In this document: piece after piece, positions 16,547-33,235 of the stretch
Layout of the letters: every line of letters begins with the position of its first letter
Position numbering within the stretch: position 1 is the stretch's first letter
NCBI GenBank assembly: GCA_022768785.1
Contig: JALELI010000117.1
Span: 1-33,446 of the forward strand
Source of the DNA: Arcanobacterium sp.
Lineage (GTDB): Bacteria; Actinomycetota; Actinomycetes; Actinomycetales; Actinomycetaceae
DNA: 33,446 bases
Direction: 5' to 3'
Position numbers and translations under genes: made by a program
The notes under the pieces: generated by a model
What the model was told of the DNA's origin: nothing
Databases searched by the model: none
The model's input: the letters and a program-made list of their open reading frames with translations, nothing else

Positions 16547-18055
16547 TCACTCCACCCAGTCAAGCGTGCGATCCACGGCCTTCCTCCATTGGTGAATTTG
16601 GTGATCGCGTTGAGCGTCGTCCATTGCGGGCTCCCATCGCCGTGCTTCTTGCCAGTTGGCGATTACATCTGCTTCTCCGCTCCAGAATCCCACCGCAATT
16701 CCAGCCGCATATGCGGCTCCCAAAGCCGTTGTTTCAGCCACTTTAGGGAGCACAACGGTGGTATCCAAAATGTCACTCTGGAATTGCATCAACAAATTGT
16801 TCGCCGTCATGCCGCCATCTACGCGAAGCTCGCCAAGTTTCACGCCGGAATCCGCTTCCATCGCGTCGAGAACTTCGCGCGTTTGGAATGCGGTGGCTTC
16901 CAGAGCGGCGCGGGCGATATGTGCTTTCGTATTGTAGCGGGTCATACCCACGATCACGCCGCGGGCATCGCCGCGCCAGTAGGGAGCAAAGAGCCCTGAG
17001 AACGCTGGCACAAAATACACTCCGCCGTTGTCGGCTACCGATCTGGCAAGTGCCTCGACTTCTCCAGAGCTCTTGATGATCTGCAGGTTGTCGCGTAGCC
17101 ACTGAATGAGAGATCCGGTGACGGCGATAGATCCTTCTAGTGCGTAAACAGGCTTGCGATCTCCAATCTGATAGCAGACTGTGGTGATGAGGCCATTATT
17201 GGAGAACTGCGGCTCTTCCCCGGTGTTCATAAGCATGAAGCAGCCAGTTCCATAAGTGTTTTTCGCCATACCAGGATCAAAGCATGCCTGGCCAAACGTG
17301 GCTGCTTGCTGATCGCCGAGATCTCCGGCCACCGGCACACCAGGTAGCAAGCCGCTCTGGCGCCCATATCCGTACACCTCCGCTGAACTCTTGATCTCAG
17401 GAAGCATACTCATGGGGATTCCTGCAATTTCGCAAATATCTTCGCGCCAGCTGAGAGTGCGCAAATCCATCAGCATTGTGCGAGAAGCGTTCGTCACATC
17501 TGTCACATGGATACCGCCATTAGGGCCACCAGTGAGATTCCAAATCACCCAGGTGTCTGGATTGCCGAAGAGAAGATCACCCGCTTCAGCTTTCTCCCGG
17601 GCCCCTGGCACATTTTCCAAAATCCACATGAGCTTCGTGATTGAGGCATAGGTAGAGAGAGTTTCGCCCACAATAAAGCGGAAGCGATCTTCCCCACCGT
17701 CACGAGCCAAACGATCTACGATATCCTGCGAGCGGGTATCCTGCCAGACGATTGCGTTGTAAATTGGTTTGCCAGTGAGCCGATCCCATACGATCGTGGT
17801 TTCGCGCTGATTCGTGATTCCAACAGCAACAATCTCGTGATGGTTGGTTTCTGCTGTGGAGAGCGCTTCGCCAACCACTTTTCGGGTGTTCTCCCAGATT
17901 TCAGAAGGGTCATGCTCCACCCAACCGGCATGTGGGAAGATCTGCTGATGCTCAAGCTGCCCCACAGATACAATCTCTCCAGCGTGATTGAAGAGAATAG
18001 CACGGGTGGAGGTGGTGCCTTGGTCGATAGCCAACACGTATTTCTTTTCTAACAT
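16547..18055 (-). CDS. glpK: Glycerol kinase
   Basis: [89 protein letters not shown]. Confidence 0.98.
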
Positions 18056-18110
18056 TATTAAATCCTTTTGCACGTCGTTGTGAACATTAGATATCTGAAT
18101 AGTATGTGCT

Positions 18111-18854
18111 TTAGCTGGCGAGCACTCCGAAAGCGGGGCCAAAAATAGCTCCCGCGAGCACTCCGCCAACGATCGGGCCTACGATAGGCACCCATGCATA
18201 GCCCCAATCGGAGCCGCCCTTGCCTTTGATGGGGAGTATAGCGTGAGCAATGCGCGGGCCAAGATCACGAACTGGGTTGATTGCATATCCTGTGGGGCCG
18301 CCGAGTGATGCGCCGATAGAGACGATCACCAGAGCAACTCCGAGAGGCCCGAGGCCAGATTGGGTATAGCCAGAGAGCATCACCCATGCAACGAGCACAA
18401 ATGTGGCGATCGCTTCGGTAAGCACATTCCAGCCATAAGAGCGGATAGCTGGGCTCGTGGCGAAAGTGCCGAGCTTATCAGCTGGCCCTTCATGCTCGTC
18501 ATAGAGTTGCTTAAACGCTAGCCACGCTGCGATTGCCCCCACGATGGCGCCGAGGAGCTGAGCCACAATATAAGTGGTTGTGGTGGCAGCGGTGATCGGG
18601 ATACCCGGCATAAATTCAGATTTCCCGGATACTACGAATCCCAGTGTGACGGCGGGATTGAGATGAGCTCCGGTGGCGTAGGCCACGTAGACGCCCACGA
18701 ATACGGCGAGCCCCCACCCGAAGTTGATCAGGAGCCAGCCGCCGCCCACTGCTTTAGATTTGCGCAGCGTGACGTTTGCGCAAACGCCCACGCCGAGGAG
18801 GAGCAAAAAAGCTGTTCCAATAAACTCGGAGAGGAAAATTTGAGGAAGAGACAT
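18111..18854 (-). CDS. glpF: MIP-family glycerol uptake facilitator
   Basis: [32 protein letters not shown] first [16 protein letters not shown] second NPx motif; adjacent to glpK. Confidence 0.95.
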
Positions 18855-18928
18855 ATGTCCCCTTTCTAAAAAGGGATACACATCGTTGTGCATCCATATT
18901 AATTTTTTGGGCTTATGCTGCTAGGGAA

Positions 18929-19021
18929 TGGGGGATTCGCACGGTGTACTCGGGCACGCCAGTCGTTTTGGCTGGTTGTGCCTTGCTGGTGGGGGATTCG
19001 CACGGTGTACTCGGGCACGCC
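18929..19021. repeat. Two exact 32-bp direct repeats, 29-bp spacer
   Basis: TGGGGGATTCGCACGGTGTACTCGGGCACGCC at 18929-18960 and 18990-19021. Confidence 0.95.
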
Positions 19022-19179
19022 TGTAAAACGCTCCTGTGCTTTTTGCGCGCGTCTAAGCCTTTTGCGCACAGCGCGAACCACATTTCGCAGCTGCATATAG
19101 CCTCGGAGTGTGGTGAAACTACTCCGACGATTGAGAATATTTAGAGTTTTCTAGCTAGAAAGCTAGTGTGTATGATGAG

Positions 19180-20529
19180 CTATTTCCGCCTATGATGTTC
19201 TCCTTTTTCAGGAAGTTCGTTCCACGCTATACCGCGCAACTCACCAGTGCCGGCGAGCCCGAGTGCATGGTGAATGAGTTGTACTGGGTGAATCACCTCA
19301 GCGCCAGCGCCTTTGCGAATTTGCCAGCGGCAGGTTTCCGTTTCACAGGCAGCGAGCTGCGGATTTGTGCGGCGAACCATCTCAAAGAGTGGTGCGCCAA
19401 CCTGCTGAGCTACTTCGTATTTTTCTTTTTTCAGCCCATAAGTGCCAGCGATCCCGCAGCATGCTTGTTCGGATTCCACCACTTTCACGCCTGGAATCAT
19501 TTCCATCATGCGAATGGCAGGCTTGCCGATTCCCTGGGATTTCACCTGGCAAGGTTGGTGGTAGGGGATTGTGAGATCGCGCCGCTGCAGATCACTAATG
19601 GGGAAATTTCCGCTATCCATCAGCTCTAGCAAGAACTCTGACGTCTCTACCATGCGGGAGCCCACATCGATGAGTTCTGGATCGTTGATGCCCATAATCT
19701 CATGTGCTTCGTGGCGGAGCATTCCCGCGCAAGAGCCACTGGAGCTCACAATAGTGAGTTCTTTTCCTGCAGCCCGCAGCTGGTTGCAGAGCTCGCGCAC
19801 TTTGCGGGTGGCCTGTTTGAACAGTCCGTTCGACTGCTGAGCAAGGCCACAGCAGCCCTGCTGCGGTACGATTACCTCGTATCCGAGATATTCAAGCACC
19901 TCTACTGTGGCAATAGAGGTGGCTACTTCAAAATAGCCGCCTGCACAGCCGTGGAAAAACACCAGTGGGCCGCGTTCGCCTGCTGTGGAGCCAGCACGCA
20001 CGTGTTTTCCAGCCACTCCAAGCTGCTGATGTTTCTTCCACCAGGCAGGGAAAGAATACTTTTGCACAGTGGGCATAGGAGCATCTTTGTGCACGCCCAC
20101 CACTGCTTGCACGGCGGCGCGAATCGGCTTTGCCGAGAGCGCGGCATTAGCGATAGGGGCAAATGGGGTGAGCAGTTTCCCCTCGAGCTCGGTTTGAGTG
20201 ATGAGCCGATCTCGCAATGGCATGTGCTCGGCTTTCATCACGGCTCGCGCCTGGGCATTAATTTCAGCGATTTTGACACCCTGGGGGCAGGTGGTGGTGC
20301 AGATTGAGCAACCCGAGCAATAATCGAGCGAATGATCTACAGAAGCTCCGTGGCGAAATCGCTCTGCCTGGGGGCCCACATATTTCGGCCCTGAGAAAAG
20401 CGGAGTTACTCTCATCACTGGGCATTGGCTCTCACAAATCGTGCACTTCACGCACGAATCTAGAGAAGCTCGTGCGAGTGATGCTTTGGCGAAATCAATT
20501 GCCTGAGGTGCTTTAGATTGAACAGCCAT
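19180..20529 (-). CDS. glpC: Anaerobic glycerol-3-phosphate dehydrogenase subunit C
   Basis: Two 4Fe-4S motifs (CVKCTICESQCP, CSGCSICTTTCPQG), two CCG domains (HGCAGGY..CCGLAQQ; YHQPCQVK..CCGIAGTYG); order glpA-glpB-glpC. Confidence 0.95.
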   Translation of the reverse strand: MAVQSKAPQAIDFAKASLARASLDSCVKCTICESQCPVMRVTPLFSGPKYVGPQAERFRHGASVDHSLDYCSGCSICTTTCPQGVKIAEINAQARAVMKAEHMPLRDRLITQTELEGKLLTPFAPIANAALSAKPIRAAVQAVVGVHKDAPMPTVQKYSFPAWWKKHQQLGVAGKHVRAGSTAGERGPLVFFHGCAGGYFEVATSIATVEVLEYLGYEVIVPQQGCCGLAQQSNGLFKQATRKVRELCNQLRAAGKELTIVSSSGSCAGMLRHEAHEIMGINDPELIDVGSRMVETSEFLLELMDSGNFPISDLQRRDLTIPYHQPCQVKSQGIGKPAIRMMEMIPGVKVVESEQACCGIAGTYGLKKEKYEVAQQVGAPLFEMVRRTNPQLAACETETCRWQIRKGAGAEVIHPVQLIHHALGLAGTGELRGIAWNELPEKGEHHRRK

Positions 20530-21917
20530 CAGTGGTTCTCCTTCGTGCTAGCCGCTGGCTGCTGCGCTGAGGTGCTTTGGCGGGCGGCGATAAAAGAATC
20601 GAGTGCCTCCACAGCGGCGGCGGCACTTCCGAGCGCAATTCCCTCACCAGAGCCTTCATTCCAGGGCAACGCACCGCCGATAATGGAGCCAGCGCAGTAG
20701 AGATTGGAGAAAATGGGTGCTCCTGGAACGCCGTCAGCAGTATTCCCGAGTGGTCGCATCGCACTATCCACGCGCACGCCGGAGCCAAAGATTTCTCCCT
20801 CGGGGCTCCATACCGGTATGTCGCACAGAAGCTCTCGAATAGTGCCAAATGAATCGCGTTCCAGCGCTCCAGCATCAAAGCTGCCACCGGCGTAGATGAC
20901 GGCGTCTACTGGCAGTTGTTTCACCGCTCCGGCCACGCGAACGGCCACTGCCGTCACCAGCTGTGGGGTGGCCTCGTCCGTGGCTGGTGCACCTTGCGTA
21001 TGTGCGGCGGGAGAGCTATCAGTTGTGACCCCCACAGCTCCGGCGTTGAGCATAATATCTACCCGCATCTCGCGGCAGGCATGTACGAGGAAATCGTTGA
21101 TCCTCCGGCCCGGCACTGATGGCGGGGGCAGTGGAATTTCTCCCACGGGAGTGCCGAGCTGTTCCCTGAGCGCTGTGAAAGTATCTGGTTTGAGCCCGAG
21201 CACGCCGGGCAGCAACACGGTTTCTCCCTCATGGGCCAGGCCTTTTAGCTGATCGAGCAGGGCGTCAAAATCGGCGGTGCCCCACTCTTTATCTAGGCAG
21301 CGAGCGATTGTGGTGCCAGTGGTGTCTGTTTCGGCATGGCGCAGCGGCAATTTAATATGTGCTGCCCGAGCATGCACCTGCACATATGGCGATGCATTGA
21401 GATTATCTGCCACGAGCTGTGGATAGAAATCTTTGAGATTGTCGATTCCAACCACGAGATAGCGCTTTCCATTGGCAAGCACGCTCGCCGTCATCGATGT
21501 GGGCACGCATGCTGAGGGTTGCACTGCTCCGATTGCAGTGGGAAGTAGCTTGTTGGCCAGAGCAGTTCGCTCTTCCCGCTCGGCTACAACTGTTAGCTCC
21601 TGCGGCGAGAAGAAGGGGAGTTTGTGCACCAGCCACTGCACACCTGCGAGCACGTGATGAGCTCCAATGTGCGCATAAGGGTGGTCTGGGTGAGTGTTCA
21701 CAAATTCCGTGAATGCCGGCAAGATTTCTGTGGCAGGGGCACGAGTTGGCAGGTGCTCACGTTGTGTATTCCACCCGAGCACATCAACTGTGCCTTTGCT
21801 GAGCAGTAATCCTCCCCAGCCGTAAGTGACGATACGTACCTGATGTCCCCGTTCGGCGAGCATCAATGCACTGGTGAGCCCGGCAAGGCCAGCTCCAATC
21901 ACCACGATTCTGCTCAT
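20529..21917 (-). CDS. glpB: Anaerobic glycerol-3-phosphate dehydrogenase subunit B
   Basis: MSRIVVIGAGLAGLTSALMLAERGHQVRIVTYGWGGLLLSKGTVDVLGW; overlaps glpC start (TGATG) and glpA stop (ATGA). Confidence 0.93.
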   Translation of the reverse strand: MSRIVVIGAGLAGLTSALMLAERGHQVRIVTYGWGGLLLSKGTVDVLGWNTQREHLPTRAPATEILPAFTEFVNTHPDHPYAHIGAHHVLAGVQWLVHKLPFFSPQELTVVAEREERTALANKLLPTAIGAVQPSACVPTSMTASVLANGKRYLVVGIDNLKDFYPQLVADNLNASPYVQVHARAAHIKLPLRHAETDTTGTTIARCLDKEWGTADFDALLDQLKGLAHEGETVLLPGVLGLKPDTFTALREQLGTPVGEIPLPPPSVPGRRINDFLVHACREMRVDIMLNAGAVGVTTDSSPAAHTQGAPATDEATPQLVTAVAVRVAGAVKQLPVDAVIYAGGSFDAGALERDSFGTIRELLCDIPVWSPEGEIFGSGVRVDSAMRPLGNTADGVPGAPIFSNLYCAGSIIGGALPWNEGSGEGIALGSAAAAVEALDSFIAARQSTSAQQPAASTKENH

Positions 21918-23731
21918 TGGTGCAGCTCCTTCCACTCGGCGGCGTTGGCATCTAAAGCTGGCGGCGCCGAGTGAGTGCCGTGCAGCAGAGCGAGATCGCC
22001 GGTTGCCGCGATTGCTTCTTGGCTCGGTTGCGGTAGCTGATCTATGCCGAGCGTGCAGTGAGTAACCCACTGATTGAGTGCGGTTTCGCGCAGTTGCTGA
22101 GTGAACAGCAACGGAGCAATTCCGTGGAATCTGTTGTGCATAAAGAGCCGGAGTTGGGCGTTTGTGAGAGCCACAGCGGCGTTGGCGTCAGAGGCGGCAG
22201 GGCGTGCCGGTGAATCTGCAGCCGTGCCGGAGTTCTCTGCCACGGCTGCACTCGTGTCACAAGCCGTCTCGAGGTGAGCCGCTTCGTGGTGAGAATCAGG
22301 CTCAGTTGCTGCGCAGCTCGTTTGCAGCTGCTGGGAGCGCCAGGTGTGAACCACTCCAGCGAGCCGTGCCCCGCAGAATGTGCCCTGGCATGGCCCCATG
22401 CCAATGCGCAGTTGGCGGCGCAGATCATCGAAATTGGCAGTGGGCTGTTCGGTGAGAGCCTGCTCAATCATCGAGCGGGTGACGAGCTCGCATTCACAGA
22501 TAATCTGCTCACTGCCGCGCACGTGCTCGGCATGATTGAGACGATCTGTGATGGTGTGATTATGCGCGCTAGCTCCGGGAGTGTTTTCATCTGCTGTGCG
22601 GCAGGGGCGGTCTTCACCCAGCTGCTCACAGAGGGTATCAACCACGTTTTTAGCCATGAGCCGATAGGTGGTGAGTTTGCCGCCAGCGATCGAGAAAAAG
22701 CCAGATATGCCGTCGCGTTCTTGATGATCGATAATACTCATGCCACGGCTCATATGCCGAGTGTCGGATTTAGATACTCGGCGGTCGCGTACGAGTGGCC
22801 GCGCTCCGGCCCACACGTGCACAGCGCGTGCCGCGCGGAATCCAGGGATAAGTGCCTCTCCAGAATCGAGCATGTGCTGCACTTCTTCAGGCTTGATCTC
22901 CAAGAAATCTGGATCTGCTGCCTCTTGATCTGTGGTGCCGATAATGCACACCGTGTGATCGGGCACCAGGATGTCGCCATCGGCGGGGTAGACGCAGCGG
23001 TTGATCACGGTATTCACTAGGCGGTGGTTCATCGCCACCATGATTCCGCGCCCTGGCACCACATCTACATCGTAGGCTCCTGCGAGAGCGGCAATTTGGC
23101 CCGCCCACGGCCCGCCGGCATTGATGACGGCGCGGCAGCTCACGTGCACAGTTTCGCCAGTTTTCTCGTTGGTGGCGCTCACTGCGGTGACGCCATGTGC
23201 ATCTGTATGAATAGCAGTGACGCGATGATATGTGAGCACCTGCGCGCCGTATTCTTTAGCGGAGGCTACCGTGCCCCACACCATTCGCCACCCGTCTACC
23301 ACGGCGTCGCGCACCTCAAAAGCGCGCTTGATTCCTGGGTTGAGGCGCGGTTCGCGGCGCAGTGCCTCTGCCAGTGAGATCTCAGCGGCGGGCACGTGCG
23401 TAGCGGCGGCGGCGGCGAGGAATTTATCGGCGTGATCTTCCTCATCGAAAGGCGTCACCACAAACAGCCCGCCGGTTTCTTCAACGGCATCGGAGTGGAT
23501 TCGGCGCACGATTTCATTTTCTTGGGCACATTCGGTGGCGGATTCTGGATCGGAGACCACGTATCGGCCGCCAGAGTGGAGGAGCCCGTGGAAACGCCCC
23601 GTGGTGCCTTGGGCAAGATCTGCTCGTTCGAGGAGAATAGCATTGAATCCGCGCATCGCTAGATCGCGCAGCACGCCGGTGCCGGTGGCTCCTCCGCCTA
23701 TCACTACGACGTCTGTTTCTAATGAGATCAT
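21914..23731 (-). CDS. glpA: Anaerobic glycerol-3-phosphate dehydrogenase subunit A
   Basis: TDVVVIGGGATGTGVLRDLAMRGFNAILLERADLAQGTTGRFHGLLHSGGRYV; C-terminal BFD-like CECELVTRSMIEQAL..GMGPCQGTFC. Confidence 0.95.
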   Translation of the reverse strand: MISLETDVVVIGGGATGTGVLRDLAMRGFNAILLERADLAQGTTGRFHGLLHSGGRYVVSDPESATECAQENEIVRRIHSDAVEETGGLFVVTPFDEEDHADKFLAAAAATHVPAAEISLAEALRREPRLNPGIKRAFEVRDAVVDGWRMVWGTVASAKEYGAQVLTYHRVTAIHTDAHGVTAVSATNEKTGETVHVSCRAVINAGGPWAGQIAALAGAYDVDVVPGRGIMVAMNHRLVNTVINRCVYPADGDILVPDHTVCIIGTTDQEAADPDFLEIKPEEVQHMLDSGEALIPGFRAARAVHVWAGARPLVRDRRVSKSDTRHMSRGMSIIDHQERDGISGFFSIAGGKLTTYRLMAKNVVDTLCEQLGEDRPCRTADENTPGASAHNHTITDRLNHAEHVRGSEQIICECELVTRSMIEQALTEQPTANFDDLRRQLRIGMGPCQGTFCGARLAGVVHTWRSQQLQTSCAATEPDSHHEAAHLETACDTSAAVAENSGTAADSPARPAASDANAAVALTNAQLRLFMHNRFHGIAPLLFTQQLRETALNQWVTHCTLGIDQLPQPSQEAIAATGDLALLHGTHSAPPALDANAAEWKELHQ

Positions 23732-24110
23732 GCTTGCCTGCTTTGCTGAGTTATATCGATGTGATTCGCCATCGGCGGTGCAGCTTCTTTGCCGGTGCCG
23801 GTGGCACATAGATGTTCGCGCGGGTGCGGTATCACTCTGCTTGAAATCCTTTCGGAAAGAAACGGTAGCGCTTTCTGCAGAAGCGGGTGGCAAACATCGA
23901 GAGGAAAAGTAGATTTTAAGAAACCGTGCACGATTGCTTTGGGGTTTTGAACAAACGTGCATATCCTGGAGTAGTTGGTGCGGCGAGGCAGTTGGGGTGT
24001 GCGCTGAACGCAGGCTCCGAACACTGTATACAGCCAGCGGCTGCTATACGCCGTTGCATAGCGCGGCAGCTGGGCATAGGGCCGTGCTGTGTGAACAGAA
24101 AGGGCAGAGT

Positions 24111-25070
24111 ATGGCTCAAGAAACCGACTTTTTGTACGACATATCTGTGATGCATTACATCGAGGGTCTCACGATGGAAGCGATTGCACGCAAAGTTGGA
24201 GTGTCTCGCTCTACGGTGTCTCGTTCCCTTAAAGAGGCGCGCGAGCATGGGTATGTGCATATCACAGTGCGCTCCATCGATGCGCAGTCTTCAGAACTTG
24301 TGCAGTGGTGTGCGGCTACATTTGGCATAACAGCCACAATCGTGCCTGTGGCATTCGACGTCAGTGAAGTGCGGCGGCTCGATATCGTCACGGCGATGGC
24401 GGCGTCGCTCTTTACTGAAATGGTGCACCCTGGTGATGTGATCGGTGTGGCGTGGGGAAATACAATATCGAAACTCTCTGAGCATTTGCAGCCGCGGGCA
24501 GTAGATGGTGTGACGGTGGTGCAGCTCAACGGGGCTGCGAGCGTACCTGGCCAGGGCGTTCCGTATGCCGGTGCGCTCATTCAATCAATCGCAGCAGCTT
24601 TTGGTGCCCAGATGGTTACCTTCCCGGTGCCGGCCTTCTTCGATCATGCACAGACGCGAGAAGTGCTGTGGGAAGAGACGTCCGTGCGCTCAATTCGGGA
24701 GCTGCAGCTGCGGGCCAGTATTGCGATATTCGGGGTGGGCTCACTCAGCTCGGCGATTCCTTCGATGGTGTACTCGGGCGGTTATCTGAAACCAGGCGAT
24801 ATGGAAACGATCCGCCAAGAGGGTGTGGTGGGCGATGTGTGCACAGTGCTGCTACGAGGAGATGGCACGTGGAGAGACCTGGCTCTCAACGATCGTGCTT
24901 CGGGGCCGACCCCCGATATGCTGCGGAAAATCCCTAATCGTGTGGCCGTGGTGGCTGGAGCGGGGAGGGTGCCGGCTTTGCTGGCAGCGCTGCGCGCTGG
25001 GGTGATCACTCATCTAGTGATCGACCGCGATACGGCGATTCGGCTCCAGCAGCTTGTGAGCCGGCACTGA
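24111..25070 (+). CDS. SorC-family transcriptional regulator (divergent from glpABC)
   Basis: HTH YIEGLTMEAIARKVGVSRSTVSRSLKEAREHGYV plus sugar-binding domain GDVIGVAWGNTISKLSEHL, VQLNGA, GVITHLVIDRDTAIRL. Confidence 0.92.
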   Translation: MAQETDFLYDISVMHYIEGLTMEAIARKVGVSRSTVSRSLKEAREHGYVHITVRSIDAQSSELVQWCAATFGITATIVPVAFDVSEVRRLDIVTAMAASLFTEMVHPGDVIGVAWGNTISKLSEHLQPRAVDGVTVVQLNGAASVPGQGVPYAGALIQSIAAAFGAQMVTFPVPAFFDHAQTREVLWEETSVRSIRELQLRASIAIFGVGSLSSAIPSMVYSGGYLKPGDMETIRQEGVVGDVCTVLLRGDGTWRDLALNDRASGPTPDMLRKIPNRVAVVAGAGRVPALLAALRAGVITHLVIDRDTAIRLQQLVSRH

Positions 25071-25201: not shown

Positions 25202-25256
25202 ACGCCGCTGGCGTAAAGCTACGGCTCTGGCGTAAGGCTACGGCGCTCAGCGGCGT
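25202..25256 (-). terminator. 9-bp inverted repeat enclosing a 19-bp tandem duplication, overlapping the YhgE-like stop codon
   Basis: ACGCCGCTG (25202-25210) / CAGCGGCGT (25248-25256); CTGGCGTAA(A/G)GCTACGGCn copies at 25208 and 25227. Confidence 0.5.
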
Positions 25257-27574
25257 GCTAACGGAATGTAGCGAGTGGCAAAGGTGCGCAGCGAAGCTAC
25301 GTCTAGTGTGCGCCGTTTTGCCACAGCTGCTACTGCAGAGAAAAGCGATGCCAGGAACCAGAAAATGAGAATCCAGACAGCCACTGAGCTAGATCCGATC
25401 CCGGTGATCGCACTCATGAGCGCATCTTGGGCCTGTGGCATCGGGAGGAAAGAATGCAGCGCATTCACTAATGCTGAATCAGAGGCAGCTGGGAGCAGCC
25501 CGTTGAGTGCCACGATTTGCAGACCCAAGAATATGAGCGAGAGGATCGATCCACCTTTCATACCCAGTGTTGCAGTGAAAGCCACATGCAGAGCCATCAT
25601 AGTAAATGATGTAAAAAGCAGCAGCGCAATGAGCGAGAAGAGGTGTTCGATGGGTACTTTGCTCACGGCGAGCCCAATGAGCACTAAGAGGCTCTGCGCA
25701 GCTCCGATTCCAATTGCCGAGATAAGCGAACGCACGGTGAGCGCCAATGGAGTGAGTGGCTCATTGAGTTTTTTGCTGGCCATTGAGCTGCGATAGATAA
25801 TCGTGCCTAAAGCGCCGAGCCAGAGTGCGAGCGCTGCGAGGCCAGGGGTGAGCGCGGAACGTGGATCAACGAGTGCCCCTGGGGCGGCAATGCGCACTGG
25901 GGCGCCGAGAGCGCTGGCAGTGTGCTCAGCTTCGGCGCGAGTGTAGCTCGGAATCTGATCTGCCGCTTTAGTGAGCTGCTTGGCCAATGTGCGTGAACCG
26001 TCGGTGAGCTGGTTTTGGCCACTGGCTAGTGCCTGTGCGCCGTCAGCCAGCTGTGCGGTGCCATCAGCCGTTTGAGCGGCTCCGTCAGCCAGCTGTGCGG
26101 CTCCGTCAGCCAGCTGCGGAGTGCCACTCGCTAAGCGGTTTGCGCCGTCAGCCAGCTGCTGGGCTCCCGCCGTGAGCTGTGGACCATTGCGCTTCAATTG
26201 CTGCAACCCATCAGCTAATTGCCCAGTGCCATCGGCGAGCTGTGTGGCTCCTTTCGTGAAAGCAGCCCCCTGCGTGCCGAGCATCTGGGAGTTAATCTGC
26301 TCGGCAAGTGTGCCCAGTCCATCGGCTAGTGAGCGTGCTCCCTCTGCCAATTGATCTGCTGGATTAGTAATTTTTGTGAGCTCTTCGAGAGTGATTTCAC
26401 CCCGGGCGGCAGCGTCAGCGGCTTTCTGAAGCTGCTCTGCAAGAGTGGCGAGCCCCTGCGCTGTTTGGGCGGTGCCGGTGGCGGCCTGTGTGCAGGCAGT
26501 TTGATTTCCGGCACTGCACTGATCAATAAGATTGGTGAGTTTGCTGAAGCCATCGGAGAGCAGCTGGGCGCTGTGTGATGCCCCGGTAAGCCCTCCGGGA
26601 AGCTGTTTCACGAGTTCATCGGCCACAGTGTGAATGCCAGTAGCCACTTTCGTGAGTGCGTCAGCGAGCTGCTGGGCTCCGCCGAGCATTGATGTGCTCT
26701 GGCCCGGCTGCGGAGTGGTAATGCCATCGTAAATGCGTTGCACCCCGCCCACATAACCCTGAACTCCCTGCGAGAGCTCGCGAGCACCACTCGCGAGAGG
26801 AACTGCGCCATCGGCGGCGCGATTGACGCCCGCCATATATCGATTGAGCCCTTGCGCGAGCCCCGCAGCTCCAGATGCAAGTGGCTGTGCTCCAGTGTTG
26901 AGCTGCGTAACGCCGGAAGCTAGCTGTTGTGCACCACTGGATAGTTGAGTAGTTCCATCGGCAAGCGCTGCAGATCCCGCCGCGAGTGAGGTGGCTCCAT
27001 CAGCTGCTTGAGCGACGCCATCTGCGAGTTGGGTGGCGCCACTTGCTGCCTGCGAAAAACCGCTTTTAATCTTGCTCGTGGCTGCCAGTGATTCGGTGAT
27101 ATAAGACACAGTGAACGACGTGCTCAGATCTTTGCCGGCAGCGTTCACAATTTCGCGGGAAATATCTGCGAGCAGCGCAGAGCGGCCGTTGGTGCGCACA
27201 GTGATGACGCCCGGATCCGTGGCCGTATTCTGGAGCACTGCCGCCACGGCGGCTGAGAAGTTGTGAGGGATTTCCACCACTGCTTCATAGGTGCCATCGC
27301 GCAACCCTTTACTCGCTGAGGTGGCACTCACCACTGCCCATTGAAAATGCGAGCTGTGCTGCGGGTTGGTGAGCGTGGCAATCATCTGGCGCCCCGCGGG
27401 CAAAATTTGGCCTGTGGAAAGTGTGACGGGCGCATCAGAGTTCACGATTGCTGCGTGCGGAGAGCCGTAGTTGGCCAGTTGGTCAGTGTTTGCTCCGAGC
27501 AGTGCAATAAAAAGAAAAACCGGGAGTGCTATCACCACACTCAGCATTAGCCGGTGGTGCTTGCGCCGTCTCAT
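25247..27574 (-). CDS. YhgE/Pip-domain-like membrane protein with long (Q/T)LADGA repeats
   Basis: N-terminal TM plus extracytoplasmic region, many 7-aa xxLADGA repeats, C-terminal block of about 6 TM segments. Confidence 0.9.
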   Translation of the reverse strand: MRRRKHHRLMLSVVIALPVFLFIALLGANTDQLANYGSPHAAIVNSDAPVTLSTGQILPAGRQMIATLTNPQHSSHFQWAVVSATSASKGLRDGTYEAVVEIPHNFSAAVAAVLQNTATDPGVITVRTNGRSALLADISREIVNAAGKDLSTSFTVSYITESLAATSKIKSGFSQAASGATQLADGVAQAADGATSLAAGSAALADGTTQLSSGAQQLASGVTQLNTGAQPLASGAAGLAQGLNRYMAGVNRAADGAVPLASGARELSQGVQGYVGGVQRIYDGITTPQPGQSTSMLGGAQQLADALTKVATGIHTVADELVKQLPGGLTGASHSAQLLSDGFSKLTNLIDQCSAGNQTACTQAATGTAQTAQGLATLAEQLQKAADAAARGEITLEELTKITNPADQLAEGARSLADGLGTLAEQINSQMLGTQGAAFTKGATQLADGTGQLADGLQQLKRNGPQLTAGAQQLADGANRLASGTPQLADGAAQLADGAAQTADGTAQLADGAQALASGQNQLTDGSRTLAKQLTKAADQIPSYTRAEAEHTASALGAPVRIAAPGALVDPRSALTPGLAALALWLGALGTIIYRSSMASKKLNEPLTPLALTVRSLISAIGIGAAQSLLVLIGLAVSKVPIEHLFSLIALLLFTSFTMMALHVAFTATLGMKGGSILSLIFLGLQIVALNGLLPAASDSALVNALHSFLPMPQAQDALMSAITGIGSSSVAVWILIFWFLASLFSAVAAVAKRRTLDVASLRTFATRYIPLARR
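25980..27060 (-). repeat. Coding heptad-like repeats with 21-bp periodicity
   Basis: GTCAGCCAGCTGTGCGG(C/T)GCC(G/A)TCAGCC-type units; translation GTPQLADGAAQLADGAAQTADGTAQLADGAQ. Confidence 0.85.
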
Positions 27575-30351
27575 TTATCGCTCCTTTCCCGAGGGGCAGG
27601 TGCATGGAATGAAGGGGTATGTGCGGCCACAGCCCGGCGAATCCGGTGGCCTGTGGAGTGCGGCTGCTGGGTAGGGAGTGTGCTAGCAGTCTCAGGCACA
27701 TCGACGATGGCCGCAATGCTTTGTGCCTGTGCCTCGCCGTCAATAGCGATTGCGCGCACAGAAGTGGGGAGCTCTAGTTCAGGAGCCACAATTGCCAGCA
27801 CAGTGAGCCGCCGTGAATGAGCGCGTAGCAGGAATTCCCAATCCTGTGGGCCGGGATCTACACAGAGCACGAGTTTGGTGGCCGGAGGAATGAGAGTGGT
27901 ATCGGGGGCGCGCAACAGATAACTCGAAGCTTGAATTGCGGAGATCCCATCGGGCATGGTGTGCCCAGAAATTACGGCGATGCCATCGTTGGCGTGAATT
28001 CGCCCAGCGAGCAGTGCAGCGAGAGCTGAGCGGGCCAGTGCAGTCTGCAATCGCACCACAGCAAACTGGTGCGGGCGCACCACGAGTGACAGGTGCGAGA
28101 AAGCTAGCTCATGAGCATCATGTACGGCCACGTCTGAGAGGCGTACAGCTGCCTCACCGTGGTTCGCCACCCAATCGGAATGTTCTAGTGCGCGAGCTAG
28201 CCCCTCGCCCTCCACATCTACCACAGGCAAGCGTCTATCCAGCCACGCTGGTAGCCACCAGGCGTGTTTGCCGAGCAGAGCCATCACCGCTGGAATAAAC
28301 GTCATGCGCACTAAGAATGCATCGGCAAAAATTCCCACTGTGAGCGCCACAGCAATTGGTTTGATGTACTTATTCCCATCGGGGATAAAGAAAGCGAACA
28401 CAGAGGTCATAATCAGTGCTGCGGCGCTCACCACTTTAGCGGATCCAATGAATCCCTCTCGAACGGCTCGCTGGGCGTTGCCCGTGTGAATCCATACTTC
28501 ACGCATTCGCGAAACGAGAAACACTTCATAATCCATGGCGAGGCCGAAGAGAATTCCCATCACAATCACTGGCAGGAATGAGATCACCGATCCCACTTTG
28601 GTGACATTAAAGAAATCAGCGAGCCAACCCCACCCGAAAATTGCTCCCACGGCTCCTAGCCCAGAGCCTAGTGAGAGGATATAGCCTATTGTGGCAGTGA
28701 TGGGCACAGCAATGGAGCGGAACACCAGCATGAGGAGCACAATCGAGAGGCCCACAACCACAATTCCGAAAGGGAGTAGAGCGGAATTGAGCACACTCGC
28801 AATATCGACAGCCACTGCTGTGATTCCAGTGACCATCACATTGGAAATGCCATAGCGGTGTTCGAGCGCGGGGGCATTAGCACGAATCTCATGCACAATG
28901 CGCATCGTGGCTGGATTAGCTTGGCCAGTGGCGGGGATTAATTCGATGAAGGCGAGCGAAGCATCACCGTTCGGTGTGCCGAGAGCCACTTTTTCCACGC
29001 CGTCTATTGAAGCTAAATCTTTGGAGAGGTTGTTCACCAAACCGAGTGGATCTGTGCTCTGCACGATGTCTGCGATCACGATAATAGGGGAGTTGTATCC
29101 CTCGCCGAACGCTCGAGAAATTTCATCGTACGTCTCTCGCATCTGGGTGCCAGGCCGCTCATATCCGTTATCCACTAGCGAGAGGGAGAGGCCCGCGAGC
29201 GGCACAGCGCCCGCACCGAGCACCGCTATCACTAAGACGGCGAAGAGTGCGGGTTTGCGCATGATCAGGCCAATCCAGCCAGCGCCTAGCCGAGAGTGCG
29301 CAGGCGAAGTGACCGAAGCCTTTTTCGGCGCGAACCGCTTGCCGAGCAGCCCCAAAAAAGCGGGAATCGCCGTCAGCGCCACGAGCACAGCTATTGCCAC
29401 CATACCTGCGGCAGACACTCCCATCGCAGTGAGAAAGGGGATCCGGCACACGGCTAAACCGCACAGTGCGATCATCACGGTCACTCCGGCAAACACCACT
29501 GCGGAGCCGGCAGTGGCCACAGCTCTGCCAGCTGCCTCAATCGGGGAAATGCCGTGCATAAGATACTCTCGGGCGCGGCTCATAATGAAGAGGGCATAGT
29601 CAATTCCCACTGCTAGCCCAATCATGACGGCGAGTACGGGAGTGATAGCGTTGATAGTGGTGAAGTTGGCCGCCACGAGAATGCCGAGCATTCCCACGCC
29701 CACGCCCACAACGGCGGAGATTATAGGGGTGCCGGCTGCGAGTAAGCTCCCGAAAGTGGCGAACAAAACGAGTGCTGCCACCAGCACCCCGATAGCTTCC
29801 GTAATTGAGAGCTCCACGCCAGCCGTTTGCCCGATATTACCGCCGAGTAACACAGATAATTGGGGGTGCTCTGCCTCGAGCTGTTGGGCATATTGGGCTA
29901 ATTGGGCTTTCACCACGCTCGCTTTGCCGTCGGCATTTGCCGAGTAGGCTGCCACGGTGGAATCCGTTTGCACTTGTACAAGCGCGTGTTTGCCGTCTTG
30001 AGAGATAGTGCGCGTGCGTTCGGCAAACGGGTCGGTGGCCATGGAGATACCTGAAATTTTGCTGGTATCGCGCACAAACTTTTCAATTGCAGGCTGATAG
30101 CTGCTGATGTTTCCGTGCCGCGCAGAGATGAGCACCGGCTCAGATACCCCGCTTGCTTGGGGTAAGCGCTCGCGCAGTATAGAGATCCCCGTGATCGATT
30201 CAGTGGCAGAGATGTCAAAAGAGTTAGAAAGTTGCATTCCCACTGAATGAGCTCCGGCGCCGAGGGCCGCCAGCAGAAGCAACCATGCGATGAGCACTCT
30301 CCTAGAATGGCTCGCACACCAGCGGCCAAGTTTGAGAAGAAACGCGCTCAT
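27571..30351 (-). CDS. MMPL-family transporter with C-terminal degenerate ABC-ATPase-like domain
   Basis: MMPL hallmarks (GIDYALFIMSRAREYL; GLAMDYEVFLVSRMREVW), two TM bundles; extra C-terminal ~191 aa at 27574-28146; ATGA overlap with the YhgE-like gene. Confidence 0.93.
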   Translation of the reverse strand: MSAFLLKLGRWCASHSRRVLIAWLLLLAALGAGAHSVGMQLSNSFDISATESITGISILRERLPQASGVSEPVLISARHGNISSYQPAIEKFVRDTSKISGISMATDPFAERTRTISQDGKHALVQVQTDSTVAAYSANADGKASVVKAQLAQYAQQLEAEHPQLSVLLGGNIGQTAGVELSITEAIGVLVAALVLFATFGSLLAAGTPIISAVVGVGVGMLGILVAANFTTINAITPVLAVMIGLAVGIDYALFIMSRAREYLMHGISPIEAAGRAVATAGSAVVFAGVTVMIALCGLAVCRIPFLTAMGVSAAGMVAIAVLVALTAIPAFLGLLGKRFAPKKASVTSPAHSRLGAGWIGLIMRKPALFAVLVIAVLGAGAVPLAGLSLSLVDNGYERPGTQMRETYDEISRAFGEGYNSPIIVIADIVQSTDPLGLVNNLSKDLASIDGVEKVALGTPNGDASLAFIELIPATGQANPATMRIVHEIRANAPALEHRYGISNVMVTGITAVAVDIASVLNSALLPFGIVVVGLSIVLLMLVFRSIAVPITATIGYILSLGSGLGAVGAIFGWGWLADFFNVTKVGSVISFLPVIVMGILFGLAMDYEVFLVSRMREVWIHTGNAQRAVREGFIGSAKVVSAAALIMTSVFAFFIPDGNKYIKPIAVALTVGIFADAFLVRMTFIPAVMALLGKHAWWLPAWLDRRLPVVDVEGEGLARALEHSDWVANHGEAAVRLSDVAVHDAHELAFSHLSLVVRPHQFAVVRLQTALARSALAALLAGRIHANDGIAVISGHTMPDGISAIQASSYLLRAPDTTLIPPATKLVLCVDPGPQDWEFLLRAHSRRLTVLAIVAPELELPTSVRAIAIDGEAQAQSIAAIVDVPETASTLPTQQPHSTGHRIRRAVAAHTPSFHAPAPRERSDK

Positions 30352-32113: not shown

Positions 32114-33235
32114 ATGAATGCTGCGGAGAAACTCCCGTTAGTGAACGCGATCCAGCCGTTTGACGGCGCCGTGCAGAGTGGCATTGTACAACCCGGCCCA
32201 GCGCACCTAGAGGTGTTGGCTTTTGATCTGAACGAAGGAGTGGGGAAAGAGCAACTCATCAAGCTGATGAAAGAGTGGACGCCGCTTGCTCGATATCTCA
32301 CTCAGGGGCGGGCTGCCGAGGTGCCGAACTTTTACTCGCCAGAAATGGTGGAGGCTGTGGCCAACTTAACCATCACCGTGGGGTTTGGCGAACGTGTATT
32401 CGATCTCATTGGTAAGAGTGAGCTCAAGCCCGAGGGGCTGCACGATATCCCGGCTTTTACCCATGATCGTTTACAAGAACAGTGGGGGCAGAGCGATTTG
32501 ATGCTTCAAATCTGCACCGATGATCCGGTGACGCTCTTTATGGCTGCCCGTATGATGATTAAAACAGCGCTGCCTGTGGCTCACGTGAAATGGCTACAGA
32601 AAGGTTTCGGCCATGCGTTTGGTGCAGCTCCTATGGGGGCTACGCCGCGAAATCCGATGGGCTCTATTGACGGCACCGTGAATCCTAGATCTGATGAAGA
32701 CTGGGCTGAGCAGGTGTGGATCGATTCAGACCAGGCCTATTTGAAGAATTCTTCTATTATGGTAGTGCGGCGGATCGCGCTAGACCTCGATGCCTGGGAG
32801 AAGCTTGATGATCTCGGGCGGGGCAAGGTGATCGGCCGCGATCATCACACTGGCGCACCGCTCTCTGGCGGAAGTTCCGAGTTTGATGAAGAGGATATGG
32901 ACGCCACAGATACCGATGGCAACTATTTAATCGACCGCAACTCCCATCTGGCGCTCTCGCGTGAGCAAGATGGATTGCCCAACGATGCGCTCCGGCGCCG
33001 TGCGTATGCGTACGACGACGCACTCAACCCACATGTGAAAACTTCCACGAATTCGGGCTTGGTGTGGATCGCTTTCCAAAAGAATCCAGATAAGCAGTTT
33101 ACGGCGATTCAGAAACGGTTGGATAAATCGGATCTGCTCAACGAGTTTGTAGCGCATATTGGCTCGGCCGTCTATTGGATCGTGCCGGGCACGCGGCCAG
33201 ATAGCTACTGGGGGCAGGCCTTGCTCGAAGCCTGA
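32114..33235 (+). CDS. DyP-type (dye-decolourising) heme peroxidase
   Basis: GSIDGTVNP (GxxDG motif), SSIMVVRRIALDLDAWEKL, RDHHTGAPLSG, HLALSREQDG, GLVWIAFQKNPDKQFTAIQKRL. Confidence 0.95.
   Translation: MNAAEKLPLVNAIQPFDGAVQSGIVQPGPAHLEVLAFDLNEGVGKEQLIKLMKEWTPLARYLTQGRAAEVPNFYSPEMVEAVANLTITVGFGERVFDLIGKSELKPEGLHDIPAFTHDRLQEQWGQSDLMLQICTDDPVTLFMAARMMIKTALPVAHVKWLQKGFGHAFGAAPMGATPRNPMGSIDGTVNPRSDEDWAEQVWIDSDQAYLKNSSIMVVRRIALDLDAWEKLDDLGRGKVIGRDHHTGAPLSGGSSEFDEEDMDATDTDGNYLIDRNSHLALSREQDGLPNDALRRRAYAYDDALNPHVKTSTNSGLVWIAFQKNPDKQFTAIQKRLDKSDLLNEFVAHIGSAVYWIVPGTRPDSYWGQALLEA

Follow-up and report, generated by a model that had tools for sequence, protein, structure and literature searches.

Gene content of the locus

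The window, a 33,446-nucleotide stretch of DNA from a 1.93 Mb Arcanobacterium genome, encodes on its minus strand a 926-residue MMPL transporter (27571..30351) whose C-terminus is almost certainly a degenerate ABC nucleotide-binding domain (NBD). The MMPL/RND core (aa 1-711; 28219..30351, minus) is delimited by ortholog alignments and by two stretches of similarity to Pfam PF03176 (241 bits, E 1.8e-71), one of which spans aa 47-367; both MMPL repeats are present. The proton-relay motifs of TM4 (GLAVGIDYALF; 29587..29619, minus) and TM10 (GLAMDYEVF; 28519..28545, minus) are intact, so that both Asp-Tyr relay pairs are in place. In MmpL3, such Asp-Tyr pairs belong to the proton path (PMC7458404). 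Every relative with the same C-terminal fusion carries both motifs, except L120, whose TM4 escaped our search pattern.

The next gene (25247..27574, minus) begins within the stop of the first: its ATG overlaps the MMPL stop codon by 4 nt (ATGA) and lies behind a ribosome-binding-like sequence, AAAGGAG. It encodes a 775-residue YhgE/Pip-like protein with ABC-2 type membrane domains flanking an LxxG heptad-repeat region. Pfam ABC2_membrane_3 matches above threshold (47.6 bits, cut-off 31.6). The YhgE assignment itself draws on the LxxG repeats and the full-length layout together with matches to TIGR03061 (87.6 bits, E 6.7e-25) and TIGR03062 (71.6 bits, E 6.8e-20), both below their cut-offs of 96.15 and 102.2 bits. 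The membrane part resembles ABCG/ABCH exporters over about 200 residues (probability 1.00), at an rmsd of about 4 and E values of only 0.02-0.3. The AlphaFold2 model of the protein is poor (pLDDT 70.8, pTM 0.42) and unfit for docking models. The YhgE/Pip family is widespread and has mainly been described as a phage-infection protein; we know of no settled function for it.

The first-pass annotation had proposed looking for the same fusion beside yhgE/pip in other actinobacteria, and there it is: every sampled tail-bearing MMPL gene with enough flanking sequence has yhgE directly downstream on the same strand, at about 50 loci in many families. None of the 10 plain MMPLs in our tree has a YhgE gene at its locus. 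We also sampled from the opposite direction, collecting loci by YhgE rather than by the tail. Among 74 YhgE ORFs from Actinomycetia, a non-random set chosen for high score and family spread, a free-standing NBD of the same family lies directly upstream of 61, the MMPL-NBD fusion upstream of 4, and neither upstream of 9. A third arrangement also occurs, in which YhgE genes form tandem pairs with no adjacent NBD or MMPL (L207, L208 and, in the window's own genome, L205 at G000:C45:1-9800). The whole NBD-YhgE unit is duplicated in tandem in two genomes from a single family, f35 (L189, L191).

The surroundings of the fusion vary. Several fused loci start with a TetR-type regulator, as read from the sequence; the window has a DUF1015 gene in the next position instead. 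Elsewhere in the window lie a Dyp-type peroxidase gene (32114-33235; Pfam Dyp_perox_N and Dyp_perox_C) and a glycerol cluster (16547-23962 and 23934-25070) comprising an FGGY kinase, an MIP channel, an anaerobic GlpABC-like dehydrogenase set and a divergent SorC-like regulator; the kinase, channel and GlpC-like subunit were identified by searches and the rest from their translations.

A degenerate NBD at the C-terminus

The extension (aa 712-926) has three parts. A conserved linker helix, DVEGEGLARALEHSDWVANHGE (aa 712-733; 28153..28218, minus), joins TM12 to the NBD-like core; it is helical in the AlphaFold2 model, and the pattern DVEG.GL..LE...W is invariant across an alignment of 21 relatives. 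The folded core of about 140 residues follows (aa 734-872; 27736..28152, minus), a RecA-like domain without the helical subdomain, as seen in profiles, the AlphaFold2 model, Foldseek matches and alignments. The remaining 54 residues (aa 873-926; 27574..27735, minus) are essentially unconserved, with 18-38% identity among congeners and pLDDT falling to 57-65 past about residue 880.

Homologous extensions occur in orthologs from many families. In a search of 59 related genomes, about 15 homologs carried an extension of about 180 residues and the others stopped close to where the MMPL core ends. Among congeners, dN/dS is 0.07-0.25 for the NBD-like core and 0.06-0.07 for the MMPL core, rough values because dS is near saturation. 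At that resolution the tail changes several times as fast as the MMPL core, and its NBD-like core is under purifying selection, judging from these ratios. Together, the orthologs and the dN/dS values rule out a frameshift read-through or other artefact as the source of the tail. Nor is the extension general to MMPLs: the 10 plain MMPLs stop shortly past the core and fall outside the fused clade.

Taken as a single sequence, the window tail has no match in Pfam, NCBIfam or the PDB (phmmer), and only profiles detected a relationship, so annotation pipelines would label the whole protein an MMPL transporter. When a profile of 13 tails was searched against the PDB, the best 60 of 381 matches (E<=10) were all ABC ATPases, led by AlgS (1.4e-7) and YtrE (2.2e-7), with FbpC and LolD among the matches listed. 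Three of the 13 tails matched Pfam ABC_tran individually. We then compared profiles of 21 fused tails and of full-length relatives (7 free-standing NBDs and the full-length fused protein L183) using hhalign, which aligned them with a probability of 98.5% and an E value of 2.6e-15 while skipping the helical subdomain. The full-length set is itself recognizably ABC: three of the four members tested, including two of the three free-standing ones, exceed the ABC_tran cut-off of 25, at 61 bits for a fused relative and 45-47 for two free-standing relatives. Less degenerate fused relatives can also be read directly as ABC proteins, L078 through its GARPCGKS motif and L183 through GPSGSGKT and a full-length NBD.

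The structural model leads to the same place. AlphaFold2, given aa 712-895 of the window protein and 20 relatives, produced a model with a pTM of 0.84 and a mean pLDDT of 90.9, which rules out a disordered tail. The top 50 Foldseek matches in the PDB are all ABC NBDs (probability 1.00, TMq 0.50-0.59), among them FtsE (1.2e-7, probability 1.00, TMq 0.56). In the model and these matches, a RecA-like core fold with an antiparallel β subdomain is present. We regard it as nearly certain that the MMPL tail is a degenerate ABC NBD.

Much of what an ABC ATPase needs is missing. The Walker A motif GxxxxGK[ST] is absent from the window tail, and in its place stands RLQTALARS (28027..28053, minus), in which the glycines are gone, lysine has become arginine and the serine is retained. 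This reading comes from a position-locked alignment to GPSGSGKT of L183, in which near relatives are column-locked and the window sequence is placed by direct comparison; both are RLQTALARS-like. The Walker-B-like strand TKLVLCVDPG (27850..27879, minus) has no catalytic glutamate, and the strand LTVLAIVAPE (27778..27807, minus), at the position of the switch strand, has no histidine. The helical subdomain with its LSGGQ signature is deleted: almost all fused forms have 40-62 residues between the post-P-loop GR and Walker B (about 41 in the near relatives L085 and L086), compared to about 100-134 in the free-standing NBDs that can be aligned there. By spacing or sequence inspection, only 3 of 47 fused NBDs keep the helical region (L183, L090, L199). 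Because P-loop, signature, catalytic glutamate and helical subdomain are all gone, we infer that the window tail would be unable to hydrolyse ATP.

Part of this had been anticipated. The first-pass annotation described an ABC-NBD-like domain with lost P-loop glycine and lysine, a Walker-B-like LVLCVDP and a switch-like strand; the profile and Foldseek results and the L183 alignment agree with it, and both motifs lie on strands of the model. It named disorder, a non-ABC fold or homologs lacking the region as grounds for abandoning the idea, and we found an ordered ABC fold and true orthologs that carry the tail. Its range of 27574-28146 covers the folded core but also takes in the unconserved end of about 54 residues, which is not part of the NBD. 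The helical subdomain deletion, and the tail's identity as the fused form of an NBD normally found beside YhgE, go beyond that description.

Origin of the fusion

The Actinomycetia free-standing YhgE ATPase belongs to the same NBD family as the fused tail and occupies the same place, directly before YhgE. It differs in being unjoined to an MMPL, in keeping the helical subdomain, with about 100-134 residues between Walker A and Walker B where the fused form has 40-55, and in sometimes retaining the P-loop lysine. By sequence and model comparison, the tail NBD shows itself to be a descendant of the subunit that partnered the neighbouring YhgE/Pip permease.

As read from the MMPL tree, the fusion arose once: among 57 MMPL cores, the 47 fused ones, spanning many families, fall on one side of a branch with support of 100/99. 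The full NBD tree looks different, in that fused copies do not form one group and the least degenerate, L183 and L090, sit among the free-standing NBDs. For a reduced NBD set, however, a single fused clade is not rejected (AU p 0.377). Given this result and the support for one origin on the MMPL tree, we set repeated fusion aside and prefer to explain the placement of L183 and L090 by long-branch effects, though replacement could also account for it.

At the P-loop lysine position, 47 distinct fused NBDs have arginine in 33 cases and lysine in 3 (L078, L183, L186); for 71 free-standing NBDs the counts are 42 and 12. No LSGGQ-like motif was found in any of 119 NBDs, fused and free-standing. The lysine keepers and the keepers of the helical region are scattered on the MMPL tree, for which several independent losses would be the simplest reading, provided that motifs were never regained; some of the forks are weakly supported. 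Because degeneration is also frequent among the free-standing partners, catalytic decay may be older than the fusion, and the NBD may serve as a scaffold throughout the YhgE family.

A group of YhgE-associated free-standing ABC ATPases from one genus, probably Streptomyces (L141-L145, L147, L148, L151, L153-L160, L162, L166, L167), has the P-loop GPSGSGRT, perfect apart from a uniform arginine for lysine, and no LSGGQ. From their sequences these proteins are likely to be pseudo-ATPases, perhaps annotated as active. The YhgE-type NBD family is not confined to Actinomycetia, since G717:C1:3280148-3280741, from outside this class, matches its profile strongly (5.8e-40). It is one strong match from a phylum-wide search with the free-standing profile, which was otherwise swamped by ordinary ABC ATPases at E values around 1e-20.

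A putative docking module

The earlier suggestion of a regulatory or docking module would fit these observations. The reading we favour, with a probability of roughly 0.6, is that the non-catalytic tail docks the proton-driven MMPL to the YhgE permease and couples the two for joint export. The reduced RecA-like NBD core, fused to the cytoplasmic end of the MMPL (RND) transporter, would sit beneath the ABC-2-type membrane part of YhgE, at the usual NBD site, and would tether YhgE to the MMPL subunit translated from their shared mRNA. The Asp-Tyr proton relay of the MMPL would power the pair, which would export one common envelope substrate, probably lipidic or amphiphilic. Docking of the tail to YhgE is in itself likely. 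It would have to differ from that in standard ABC transporters, because the deleted helical subdomain normally forms part of the groove for the coupling helix of the transmembrane domain.

A bolder version holds that the YhgE ATPase ceased to catalyse, became attached to an RND/MMPL pump and in its present form relays a proton-driven conformational change to an ABC permease. Such an exchange of proton force for ATP is plausible, though as a full account we consider it less likely than not; it would imply a composite exporter in which two transporter superfamilies share one motor. Lysine is replaced by arginine or histidine in free-standing partners as well, both Streptomyces-like and others. 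Catalytic loss therefore extends beyond the fused forms and may have causes other than a takeover by the proton force.

Known systems offer partial parallels. Export of PDIM in mycobacteria needs MmpL7 together with the ABC-2/type V exporter DrrABC; published work presents DrrA as a classical NBD and reports that MmpL7 lacks canonical proton-relay residues (PMC11539658). There, as we propose for our locus, an MMPL and an ABC-2-type exporter act in one export path, in that case for a lipid. There is no fusion in that system, and the pair in the window looks like its mirror image, with an intact MMPL relay and an ATPase that looks dead. In SbmA-like (SLiPT) transporters, an ABC-type membrane domain is driven by protons rather than ATP (PMC13316013). 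We name SbmA as a functional parallel only: it has dropped both the NBD and the coupling helices and has its own proton path, whereas the window system retains an NBD core and has its proton path in another protein family. MmpL3 shares the MMPL core, the Asp-Tyr relay and a cytoplasmic C-terminal extension, which is described as unstable and of open role, with no mention of NBD homology in the portions of that paper we draw on (PMC7458404). Within the open-licence literature we found no description of an MMPL-NBD fusion or of a YhgE-ATPase pairing.

The tail could instead serve the MMPL alone, as a structural or regulatory add-on for assembly, membrane targeting or effector binding; MMPL and YhgE would then export independently under a common promoter, the NBD having lost its role upon fusion. 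We consider this unlikely, though it accommodates the faster change of the tail, the strong reduction of the NBD in most lineages and the 9 sampled YhgE ORFs without an NBD, which indicate that YhgE can work NBD-free. What it leaves unexplained is the persistence of the core fold in all lineages and a linkage to YhgE that is strict at about 50 loci in many families and absent from plain MMPLs. A heterodimer with one working site, in which the tail pairs in trans with an active ABC ATPase from another locus, seems improbable. One degenerate site is common to many ABC systems, and the genome has other ABC ATPases (7 profile matches), but the loci we inspected have no second ATPase between or beside the two genes, and a tail lacking helical subdomain and signature would not offer what the partner's ATP site needs from it. 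Still more doubtful is a tail that binds nucleotide and gates the MMPL by sensing energy state or nucleotide: GxxxxGK[ST] survives in a few fused relatives and arginine is frequent at the lysine position, but the window tail has lost every P-loop glycine and the Walker B glutamate.

These results offer YhgE/Pip a candidate physical partner, a dedicated if atypical ABC ATPase that in one clade has become part of an MMPL pump. They also open a general question to testing: can a primary, ATP-driven transporter run on the proton drive of another protein?
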